Source: Janthinobacterium sp. J1-1
GTDB taxonomy: Bacteria; Pseudomonadota; Gammaproteobacteria; Burkholderiales; Burkholderiaceae_D
Assembly (NCBI RefSeq): GCF_030944405.1
Contig: NZ_CP132339.1
Span: 4,712,001-4,776,000 of the forward strand
DNA length: 64,000 nucleotides
Direction: 5' to 3'
Shown here piece after piece: positions 29,935-40,194 of the stretch. The translations under genes were made by a program, and so were the position numbers. Numbering within the stretch: the first letter of the stretch is position 1; every line of letters starts with the position of its first letter. The notes beneath the pieces are model-generated. The model did not search any database and had not been told where the DNA came from. It saw only the letters and a program-made list of their open reading frames with translations.

Positions 29935-30930
29935 TTAAGCCAGCCCCTCCTGTTCAACAGTCATCTTAGCAATTTCGACTGCCGCACTAATTTCAGGCCA
30001 GCCTGCACTGAGTGCGTAGCGACTCATTCGGGCCACCGTACCTTCTGAAGCAGGTCGCCGTAGATCTTCCTGTATATCGTCGGGATGCATTCGCCAAGGC
30101 TGCAGAATTTTTCCGGCATGGTTGCTATCTTGAGCTATCAGGGTTGCAATTCTATACCCGCCTTCATCGATATCCCCCCAGTGACGGACTGGCACTGAGT
30201 CAGGAATCGATGCGATAAGCCGGCGGTACATGGCTCGCCATGCAGGACTCGGCGTGCCACCTGTATAGATCAACAGGCACCTTTCGTTGCATTGTCGGCG
30301 CGCTTCGCTGTGAAACGTTGTCAAATTCTCGATCGTTGTGACATGCTCAGGAACATCGACGATACCCAGAAGAGACGTAGCTGCAAACGCGGCGTAAGGA
30401 GTATCAAGAGTCGCTGTTAGGCGTTCGCGCTTGATCGTTACGTTCCCTGCAAGCCGAATAGGCTGCTCTTCGCGAAACAGCCCGATTTCCTTCCAAACTT
30501 CGTCACCGGGACGCGGCAAGGCATCAAGGTCATTGTAGAGCAGCACATCCACCGCCGGCGCCAGCTTTTCAAGGCGTTTGGTATCCTTGAATATACGATA
30601 ACTCGCTTCGCGAATGGGAAGGGCTATGGCGTCGGCCTCTCGCAAGCCGCGCGCGAAAACAATCACTCGAATTGCATCGAGCCATGCTTGGGCGCTCTCT
30701 GGACCAAGTCTGCGTACAGTGCGAAGCAAAGCCCAGCGCTCGCACAGCTGAACCAACACAGGAAATGAATCAAATTGAGAGGAAAGCAACGCTACCGCCT
30801 CTGCCTGGATATCTCCGCGCGAGCGCTCACCTAAAAAATCAGCAAGCGATGTCAGGGTAGCGAGATTGACGCGCTCGATAAAGTCGTCCGGAGCGCTTTC
30901 GTTGACACTACCTTGGTCCCAGACAAGCCG
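29935..30930 (-). pseudogene. jetD: jetD, 3' part (Wadjet TOPRIM nuclease subunit), split by an IS element
   Basis: This stretch encodes the last 331 residues of JetD. It contains the TOPRIM-type DUF2220 domain with an acidic residue in TTIENLTTFH and the DxD motif in HWGDIDEGGYRIA, which is the catalytic site that cuts extruded plasmid DNA in Wadjet. The upstream part of the gene is on the other side of an IS3-family element at 30934-32186. Removing the element and one copy of its 3-bp duplication rejoins codons GTG-CGG in frame and gives a 394-residue protein, normal for JetD. No other lesion is visible, so the insertion looks recent. As it stands JetD should be non-functional. Confidence 0.85.
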
Positions 30931-30941
30931 CACTGTGGTGG

Positions 30942-31826
30942 TCAAGTAATTTCGGACACAACGATAGGTTCACGTGTTGCCATTTTCCGTTCGTAGACGG
31001 TGGGTGGCAGATTGCCCAATGCTGAATTGAGACGCTTGCAGTTGTAGAAACCGACGATGTAGTCGGTAATATCGGCTTTTGCTTCGGCATGGTTGGCATA
31101 TTGGCGCTGCCACACACGCTCCATTTTCAGATTCAGGAAGAAGCGTTCTGCGACGGCGTTATCCCAACAATTCCCCTTACGGCTCATACTGCAAACGAAG
31201 CCGTGCCGCTCAAGCATCTCCTGGTACAGCGCGCTGGCATATTGACTGCCGCGATCCGAATGGACGATCAATCCCGGGGCTGGCCGCCGCTGTCCGATCG
31301 CCATGCTCAAGGCATCGCAGACCAGTTGGGCGGGCATGCTCGGCGCCATGGCCCAGCCGACCACTTTGCGTGCATACAGATCGAGAACCGTGGCCAGGTA
31401 CAGCCATCCTGCGCCAGTCCGAATGTAAGTGATGTCACTGACGTAAGCGAGATTCGGTGCGGCCGGATTGAACTGCCGGTTCAACACATTGGCGGCCACC
31501 GGCAAGCCGTGCTTGCTGTCCGTTGTGTGTACGAATTTACGCTTCCAGACCGGCTTCAAGGCCGCCTGGCGCATCAGCCGGCGTACTTTGTAACGCCCGA
31601 TGCGCACACCCGCGTTGGCCATGGCCGTGACCAGTCGCCGGCTTCCGTAGCTCTGATGGCTGGCCATGAATGCCGCTTTCAGATGGATGCTCGCTTTGCA
31701 GGATGCAGGCTTGGCGGTACGGTGCTGTGCCGTGTAAAAACCCGACCTGCTGACGGCCAGCAAATCACAGCTCTTCTGCACAGGCAAGGCCTCCTTTTGC
31801 AGCTGACGAATGACCGTGTAAATCAT
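30942..31826 (-). CDS. IS3-family transposase OrfB (DDE integrase domain)
   Basis: The 294-residue protein has an HTH_21 region ([27 protein letters not shown]) and an rve integrase core with the DDE triad: D in YVSDITYI, D in HSDRGSQY and E in NAVAERFF. It overlaps orfA by four bases (ATGA). In this family the active transposase is made by -1 frameshifting on A6G in the orfA region, giving OrfAB; OrfB alone is a side product. The reading frame is intact. Confidence 0.92.
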
Positions 31827-32122
31827 TTCATTTCGCGGGCAAAGAAGGCCGATGCCTTTTTTAAGATGGTGACGTCCTGGCGCAGTTGCTGATTTTCCTG
31901 CTCCAGTTGCCGGATCCTTTGTTGCTCGGCGGTGAGCGGTTTTCCGATGCCTGGCTGGCCGTTCTGTTCAGCACTGTATTGCGTCAACCAGCGCCGGATC
32001 GCCGTCTGGCCGATGCTCATGGTCTCGCTGACGTTTTGGACGCTCTGACCCTGTTCCTTGATCATGCGCACTACTTCCAGCTTCAAGCTGGCATCGAATA
32101 CTCTTCGTTTTCTTGTTGTCAT
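31823..32122 (-). CDS. IS3-family transposase OrfA
   Basis: The 99-residue protein has an N-terminal helix-turn-helix ([20 protein letters not shown]) and a leucine-zipper-like C-terminal part ([20 protein letters not shown]), both typical of OrfA. The frameshift heptamer AAAAAAG falls in the ILKKAS codons. The start at 32122 has GAGGAG seven bases upstream, and it follows the right-hand inverted repeat. OrfA binds the element's ends and helps regulate transposition. Confidence 0.9.
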
Positions 32123-38855: not shown

Positions 38856-38888
38856 AACAAGAGTGTCCGCTATTGACAGTACACCTCA

Positions 38889-39346
38889 ATCGAATTGATT
38901 TTCCCTGACACGTAAATTGGTCCACTCTCAGCAAACTGCATAAGCAAATTTAGAAAGTGACTAATGGACGGACTCATCGTGACAACTTTTTCCGCACCGT
39001 GGCGGCCACGCCGCAGCCATTCAGTTTCCACAAATCGATTGAAAACCAGGTTGGCACGCATGTTGAGGTTTGAAACGGGGCCGCTACCCTCTTCATCCTC
39101 CCAGGCCTCGCTGTCATCGAGCTCACGCTCGATATCCGCAATGATGTCGCGGATCGGAAAGCCGTCACTTGGTGGTAGTGGCGCATCTGGCCCAAAACGG
39201 GTTCGGTGCAACCCTACCAGCACAGTCCAAAATCGCTCATGGTTCAGCGACGCGAGGGGTTTAAAGATAGTCCCGGGCAGCCGGTCGAATAGCGGCGGTA
39301 CGTTGACGCTCGCGGCCCTGCTCAAAGTCGGTTCTAGAAGAGCCAT
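38889..39346 (-). pseudogene. jetA: jetA, 5' part, separated by the IS element
   Basis: The first 152 codons of jetA are here (ALLEPTLSRAASVNVPPLF through SGPIYVSGKINS), with the winged-helix-like N-terminal region of MukF-type kleisins. The frame then enters the IS and ends at a TAG four codons later. The start overlaps the end of the WYL regulator gene by 13 bases. Target-duplication ATC/GAT lies in the Ser-Ile codons. Confidence 0.85.
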
Positions 39347-40194
39347 TGCTCAATCTCCCTGACATTTTGGACCGCAAGCTGGTAGTCCGGCGGGCGCTGC
39401 GTCTCGACGTTAGTCGCTGCACGCACGTCCTGAACAAAATACTGGATCAACGCGGCCCGGCAGGTTTCGACAAGTGCCACCGCGCCATTCATGTACTCAA
39501 AGCGGATTACTTCCGCCTGCTCCGCTGACAAAGCGGGATGAGCAACCAGAGAAATTTTCACTGGTGTCATCCACGCAGTATCGGACTCAGATGTAAATTC
39601 GGCCTGTCGATCCTTCAGTATCTTGGCGCTCACAATACGGCCCAGTGCGAAGTCACGATATCCGGCGGCTTCCTCACAATAGGCACGGACATGCCAGCGG
39701 CACCCCGCTCTGATGAGACTATGCGGGCTGACAGTTCGTTGGTGCGGAGCCGGATTTTTCATCGATCGATATGAAATACTGACCACCCGGCGCTCACGCG
39801 CGGCCGAATGCATAGACGAATAGATCGCGGGACCAGGCGCTGCAATATCAGGATATCCAACCCAAACAAGCGAGTGTTCTTCACCGATCGGAGTGGCATA
39901 TGGCATTCCGGCAAGCACGAGGTAGTGCGCGAGTTCAGCTGCGTTATTGCGGCGATTCGACTGCGCCGTGTGCAATGGACGCAGGAAGTCTGCGGTCGGG
40001 TAGAAGTTCTTGGTCTTCGAGTCATGAATGAGCCAAGTTGGATGCGCCTCCCGGAACTCCCTGATCAGGACACTAGCCCGCACGCTGCTATTCAAACCGA
40101 AAATTCCACGCAAACGTGCGTTGTTTAAGCGTCCTTCCCAGCGCAGCAAAATCTCCATTTGATGCAGTTGTGAGTATTTTTTTTCACTATACAT
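39334..40194 (-). CDS. WYL-domain transcriptional regulator (BrxR/CapW type) of the Wadjet operon
   Basis: The 286-residue protein has an N-terminal winged helix (QLHQMEILLRWEGRLNNARL), a WYL domain in the middle (RRVVSISYRSMKNPAPHQRTVSPHSLI, RWHVRAYCEE) and a C-terminal WCX-like dimerisation region. The layout is that of BrxR/CapW repressors that control BREX and CBASS defence operons and respond to phage-related ligands. It is the first gene in the jet operon, on the same strand, and overlaps jetA by 13 bases. It would repress its own promoter in the AT-rich region upstream. Confidence 0.85.
   Translation of the reverse strand: MYSEKKYSQLHQMEILLRWEGRLNNARLRGIFGLNSSVRASVLIREFREAHPTWLIHDSKTKNFYPTADFLRPLHTAQSNRRNNAAELAHYLVLAGMPYATPIGEEHSLVWVGYPDIAAPGPAIYSSMHSAARERRVVSISYRSMKNPAPHQRTVSPHSLIRAGCRWHVRAYCEEAAGYRDFALGRIVSAKILKDRQAEFTSESDTAWMTPVKISLVAHPALSAEQAEVIRFEYMNGAVALVETCRAALIQYFVQDVRAATNVETQRPPDYQLAVQNVREIEQWLF

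Follow-up and report, generated by a model that had tools for sequence, protein, structure and literature searches.

What becomes of an anti-plasmid defence operon when two insertion sequences (ISs) split two of its genes: is it lost for good, can it be switched back on, and did a plasmid gain from the loss? These questions are raised by a locus of Janthinobacterium sp. J1-1, at positions 29935-40194 of a 64,000-nucleotide stretch of its genome. This whole stretch, hereafter the window, corresponds to C1:4712001-4776000, C1 (the chromosome) and C2 being the two contigs of a 6.95 Mb assembly of 100% estimated completeness. An earlier note on this DNA had described the locus as a type I Wadjet system led by a WYL regulator, with one IS in jetD and a different one in jetA. 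Our analysis indicates that it is probably a horizontally acquired type I Wadjet, recently inactivated by these two elements, here named IS-A (in jetA) and IS-D (in jetD), and that the loss is likely to be permanent and not a switch.

Wadjet subunits are a kleisin, a KITE protein, an SMC protein and a Toprim nuclease (PMC10586767). In the window, the WYL gene, jetA, jetB, jetC and jetD follow one another on the minus strand, with consecutive overlaps and an 11-base gap ahead of jetD. The features of the locus are as follows.

39334..40194, minus strand: WYL-domain regulator that leads the operon and overlaps the start of jetA (Pfam WYL 1.9e-15)
38889..39346, minus strand: jetA 5' piece of 152 codons, covering the N-terminal part of the kleisin-like subunit (PADLOC JetA1 5.3e-51, profile 5-144 of 482)
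37627..38888, plus strand: IS-A, IS3 family, 1262 bp, antisense to jetA, with orfA at 37687-37998 and orfB at 37995-38855 (NCBIfam transpos_IS3 351 bits)
37624..37626, no strand: target repeat ATC beside IS-A, partner at 38889-38891
36606..37626, minus strand: jetA 3' piece, 339 codons and stop (PADLOC JetA1 1.4e-100, profile 150-480 of 482)
35842..36609, minus strand: jetB, unbroken, 255 amino acids, overlapping jetA and jetC (PADLOC JetB1 2.4e-69; Pfam DUF4194)
32387..35845, minus strand: jetC, unbroken, SMC-like ATPase of 1152 amino acids (PADLOC JetC1 1123 bits, profile 1-1132 of 1140)
32187..32375, minus strand: jetD 5' piece, 63 codons, the last codon being the target repeat (PADLOC JetD1 7e-11, profile 2-64 of 394)
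30934..32186, minus strand: IS-D, IS3 family, 1253 bp, same direction as jetD, with orfA at 31823-32152 and orfB at 30942-31826 (NCBIfam transpos_IS3 324 bits)
30931..30933, no strand: target repeat CAC beside IS-D, partner at 32187-32189
29935..30933, minus strand: jetD 3' piece, 332 codons and stop, with a DUF2399/JetD_C domain (PADLOC JetD1 1.1e-109, profile 72-388 of 394; Pfam)
29920..40460, no strand: acquired island; homology of the flanks to two genus relatives without the island breaks off at 29914/29919 and picks up again at 40461/40465

For every subunit the best PADLOC model was the type I model (JetA1, JetB1, JetC1, JetD1). As judged by these models and by gene order on a single strand, the locus is a type I Wadjet anti-plasmid operon, resembling in both respects the known type I systems (JetABCD; MksBEFG/EptABCD). 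It differs from them by its leading WYL regulator, for which the BrxR family of WYL defence regulators provides a lead (PMC9122601), and by the splitting of jetA and jetD by ISs: the four frames are not all complete, and the operon is a broken member of its type. The GC (guanine plus cytosine) content is 54.8% in the jet genes, compared to 62.5% for the window, and a tRNA scan of the 64-kb window found no tRNA.

Both elements have the marks of the IS3 family: orfA and orfB overlap, the inverted ends start with TG, the target repeats are 3 bp long, and the matches to transpos_IS3 exceed its curated cut-off of 160 bits. As IS3 elements they presumably use a programmed frameshift and a circle intermediate. 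Their ends were set from further copies within the same genome, and the places, lengths, target repeats and inverted ends given in the earlier note agree with these copies. IS-A, antisense to jetA and upstream of jetB-jetC-jetD, separates the first 152 jetA codons from the remainder, and IS-D does the same for the first 62-63 codons of jetD. The rejoined frames predicted in the note, and its intact jetB and jetC, stood up as well. When one 3-base repeat is removed, frame arithmetic yields 394 amino acids for jetD (999 + 189 bases) and 491 for jetA (1021 + 458 bases), these lengths being calculated and not read from a mended gene.

How recent are the insertions? IS-D has six full copies in the genome, that of jetD included, all on C1 and all 100% identical. 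IS-A has 10 copies at 99.68% identity or more (6 on C1, 4 on C2), plus a 93% copy on C2. Matching 3 bp repeats flank 11/11 IS-A copies and 4/6 IS-D copies. The two IS-D copies that do not have them, at C1:2134k (L006) and C1:3911k (L004), suggest rearrangement at IS-D. For the 12 chromosomal IS-A and IS-D copies taken together, chance would place 0.012 insertions within the 6.9 kb of jet genes. At IS-A position 450, the older base G is found in the 93% copy, in the copies at C2_200k and C1_3579k, and in those of G267 (a genome of another species of the genus, discussed below), and T in the other eight copies of the present genome. Since the jetA copy carries T, its insertion was probably later than the rise of the T variant. 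This copy also has two private base changes, at 920 and 1074, the latter altering one OrfB residue. IS-A would have entered first, and IS-D later into an operon already dead; this order is tentatively suggested by the two private changes, all six IS-D copies being identical.

The broken genes themselves show no decay at conserved sites. The pieces of jetA and jetD are free of stops. They were placed as separate fragments in alignments of 117 JetA and 115 JetD homologues (out of 120 listed for each protein, shorter entries excluded), alongside an alignment of 120 JetC homologues. The two JetA pieces occupy neighbouring columns, as do the two JetD pieces. At columns with at least 95% conservation among homologues, the window protein differed at 0/123 positions for JetA, 1/96 for JetD and 0/262 for JetC, compared to homologue medians of 1, 1 and 2. 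An old pseudogene was thus considered and rejected, the conserved columns being intact. Full-length homologues among public sequences reach identities of 89% to the JetA 3' piece, 92% to the JetD 3' piece and 96% to JetC. Relative to Duganella radicis, nonsynonymous divergence (dN) was 0.10-0.21 (jetB excluded); synonymous sites were saturated, so that no dN/dS ratio was derived.

According to the earlier note, recent inactivation or a switch would be untenable if intact copies of jetA and jetD occurred elsewhere in the genome, or if the split form, with decaying halves, were fixed in distant relatives. A genome search found no second jetA or jetD. JetA (PF18982) was above cut-off in 12/399 genomes of the order and 19/346 of the class, the window genome being counted in both, and each of the 29 other genomes had one unsplit match with no stops. 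Genomes with sub-cut-off matches only (1 in the order, 20 in the class) were excluded from this count; one of them contains stop codons. In the 12 relatives found via JetC, all jet genes are adjacent (tblastn), and a WYL homologue precedes jetA (L024-L035), over at least 270 residues in 11 of them and by a 34-residue match only in L034. In L033, the JetA 3' match consists of two adjacent segments. The claim of recent inactivation is therefore upheld by (near-)identical IS copies, intact target repeats, the absence of decay at conserved sites or of a second copy, and unsplit relatives.

The surroundings of the operon argue for horizontal acquisition. JetC was found in only 3/392 genomes of a family sample at 1e-30; outside the window's own genome, the identities were 42% and 29%. 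A left-flank search of 40 genus genomes matched 34, the window's own included, and 30 loci were compared. In two of these relatives (L052, L053) the left VOC gene lies directly beside the right EamA gene, giving an island-free site. The Duganella radicis locus (NZ_WNKY01000064.1, L024) has the same WYL-jetA-jetB-jetC-jetD order, with 80% identity for JetC, 79% and 82% for the JetA pieces, and 68% and 74% for the JetD pieces; unlike in the window, its jetA and jetD are unsplit (entries of 492 and 394 amino acids). The VOC and EamA genes flanking the window operon had no match within this 19 kb locus.

Where might IS-A have come from? The earlier note had suggested looking for plasmids in the strain. 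The second contig C2 (236,309 bp, 3.4% of the genome) encodes TraC, TraH, a TrwC relaxase, a TrwB coupling protein and a ParA-type ATPase, that is, the relaxase, coupling, type IV secretion and partition genes of a conjugative plasmid; a ParB_N match was weak (24.9 bits, just below the cut-off of 26.3). C2 holds 4/10 of the near-identical IS-A copies (binomial P = 2.4e-4), as well as the sole 93% copy. One 14.3 kb block of C2 has matches to genes for arsenic transporters and copper oxidases on known plasmids. G267 has a second contig of 257,144 bp with seven IS-A copies and one fragment, and these seven copies, together with one on its chromosome, carry a common set of four differences relative to the jetA copy. 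C2 and the G267 contig have blocks of 13.7, 14.3 and 4.2 kb in common, at 99.93-99.97% identity, and megablast matches of any identity cover 62,964 bases of C2. Six C2 core proteins (TraC, TraH, TrwC, TrwB, ParB and ParA-type) had no match on the G267 contig; by these comparisons, the two contigs share cargo blocks, and not the backbone as tested. The stretch around the C2 IS-A copy at 78 kb is uninterrupted in the G267 contig, at 99.9% identity, which implies that IS-A moved after these blocks parted. In the plasmid collection no close copies of IS-A or IS-D were found, only distant ones at 71-77%. As IS-A is active and concentrated on C2, this contig would be the likely source of the first insertion, that of IS-A into jetA.

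On C2, a segment of about 1 kb (C2:9021-10090, L036) is 91-92% identical to a gene for a coupling protein carried by 26-39 kb plasmids from Achromobacter, Sulfuriferula and Enterobacter, and is perhaps the remnant of a small plasmid within C2.

With both genes split, neither the JetA kleisin nor the JetD nuclease would be made in complete form, and the complex would be unable to bridge and cut circular DNA. Several points weigh against this account of a recent, permanent inactivation set off from C2. A TTG at 30945, overlapping the stop of IS-D orfB (30942-30945), could start a frame of 336 amino acids for the remainder of JetD, that is, JetD minus about 62 residues, so that the loss of JetD activity is inferred only. 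The inactivation as a whole is read from the DNA, and the order of the insertions turns on two base changes against none. The C2 contig has no terminal overlap that would establish its circularity, and the six chromosomal IS-A copies make the immediate donor of the jetA copy ambiguous. Finally, Wadjet is reported to target circles below about 50-100 kb (PMC12287153, PMC10586767, PMC12375680); at 236 kb C2 is above this limit, and the retention of the loss is not explained by it. Smaller plasmids might still have gained from the loss, or the cell might have been spared the cost of the system.

Whether defence genes are hit by IS-A more often than other genes was assessed by scanning the parts to the left and right of the insertion in each target gene separately (Pfam, PADLOC). 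At C1:11k, IS-A splits an mREase_IV gene (PADLOC 1.7e-97 and 2e-13) for a type IV restriction-like helicase, whose domains are methyltransferase, PLD, helicase, S24 and DUF3427. At C1:3579k (L155:7589-11172), it splits PDC-M25A into pieces scoring 1.2e-37 (profile 17-141) and 9.9e-101 (profile 143-376); the adjacent partner gene PDC-M25B (4.4e-94) is unbroken. At C1:240k (L157:9937-13328) it lies in a type VI secretion system Tle3 effector gene, where the separate pieces gave no PADLOC match, and sites C1:4526k and C1:4924k had no Pfam or PADLOC match. In G267, the chromosomal copy splits Shedu sduA near its 3' end (L151:3282-5956; PADLOC 1.3e-162, profile 4-426, and 2.2e-12, profile 428-468). 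The proportion of chromosomal IS-A sites in PADLOC genes is thus 3/6 in this genome, jetA included, and 4/7 with G267, which may hold more chromosomal copies, as two candidate IS-A places were scored per other genome. Of the five C2 sites three were scanned, and the sole match was weak (PDC-M43B, 0.0012, one piece). For IS-D, the proportion was 1/6 (jetD); pieces were scanned at four other sites (the longer piece only at C1:4913k, the left piece only at C1:2134k), C1:3911k being excluded.

Two loci have surroundings worth recording. Around C1:11k (L156:6038-11157, C1 at about 9-14 kb), the DNA is GC-poor and carries D12 methylase, DndB/DpdB-like and DUF6602 nuclease-like genes. A putative filamentous-phage prophage with a Pfam secretin domain, at L160:6182-13059, contains two oppositely oriented IS-D copies separated by about 3 kb; a Zot-like gene there was read from the sequence by eye.

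One explanation of the pattern, to which we give an even chance, is a neutral one: ISs land or survive in dispensable, GC-poor acquired DNA rich in defence genes, and plasmids play no selective role. All 12 chromosomal IS-A and IS-D sites are GC-poor (0.505-0.608 over 3 kb, compared to medians of 0.647 for the remainder of the window and 0.641 for a random 400 kb of C1, where 21% of points were equally low), which favours this view. So do IS-D, which is not found on C2 and hits a PADLOC gene at one of six sites with one unscanned, and the sparing by Wadjet of circles above about 50-100 kb (PMC12287153, PMC10586767). As a control, 20 of the 79 genes under GC-poor points in the random 400 kb were scanned: 1/20 matched PADLOC at 1e-10 (best mad8, 4e-20, otherwise HerA) and 0/20 at 1e-50. 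Relative to the 1/20, IS-A is enriched (one-sided Fisher, P = 0.028 for 3/6 and P = 0.009 for 4/7), which speaks against neutrality, on small numbers and in a test devised after the pattern had been seen. IS-D alone is not (P = 0.42), and pooling the 12 chromosomal sites gives no clear excess (4/12, P = 0.053).

A role for selection, which the earlier note had linked to incoming plasmids, is possible, although we hold it to be less probable: cells in which IS-A had broken Wadjet and other defence genes could keep or spread incoming plasmids, or escape the cost of the defence, and would be favoured. In its favour, four defence-type genes are broken by chromosomal IS-A in two species, both with IS-A-rich large contigs; deletion of Wadjet in Clostridium cellulovorans raised conjugative uptake about 10^5-fold (PMC12287153); and ISs in cas genes and 12 other defence clusters are documented (PMC10359306). 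Against it stand the size of C2, the lack of any small plasmid in the two-contig assembly (assembly can lose small plasmids), the status of PDC-M25 as a merely predicted system, and a type III Wadjet deletion in Cupriavidus necator that was without effect on electroporation or plasmid stability (PMC12645576). More doubtful still is the extended idea that IS-A is a plasmid-associated disarming agent, spread between species on large metal-resistance-type contigs, the broken alleles of Wadjet, the mREase_IV-type helicase, PDC-M25A and Shedu being retained for plasmid establishment or maintenance.

The earlier note had also proposed that the ISs might switch the system by excision, occasional exact departure restoring the operon in part of the population. 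The intact frames and target repeats would allow it, yet we consider it very unlikely. IS3 elements such as IS-A and IS-D are assumed here to follow a replicative pathway that regenerates the donor copy. Such regeneration is described for a different IS family (PMC7780238). Moreover, two independent exact losses would be needed, and the same element is found in other broken genes of the genome; on the transposition mechanism and this last observation the switch was rejected. Equally improbable is a misplacement of IS copies into the operon by the assembly, which the multi-copy nature of both elements would favour and which is countered by the own flanks with matching 3 bp repeats of every IS-A copy and 4/6 IS-D copies, the private base changes of the jetA copy, and the completeness of the two-contig assembly.

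Recent permanent loss remains our preferred reading, and it has partial precedents. In PMC10359306, ISs with target repeats likewise break CRISPR-Cas and other defence clusters, and a few such ISs occur on plasmids too; here, by contrast, one element family occurs in several defence-type genes of one genome and in one of a second species. The main text of that paper, to which this check was confined, does not mention Wadjet and insertion sequences together. The spontaneous Wadjet loss in C. cellulovorans, and an Ept mutation of M. smegmatis mentioned in the same paper, are losses of the operon under plasmid pressure (PMC12287153), as reported there by large laboratory deletion or mutation, whereas here two ISs are found in a sequenced genome. 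No title on an IS-split Wadjet was found among the papers listed in the literature searched; subscription journals and preprints lay mostly outside it, and prior publication is possible. IS-inactivated defence is already known; what is new is Wadjet as the target, together with the presence of a single element family in a number of defence-type genes across two hosts.

The locus provides a natural and recent case in which anti-plasmid immunity fell to a mobile element whose copies are concentrated on a plasmid-like contig of the same strain. Should the pattern seen at several loci hold, carriage of a plasmid's IS would predict which defence systems its host has lost. Whether plasmids remove host defences by transposition, and not by dedicated inhibitors, could then be tested directly by counting.

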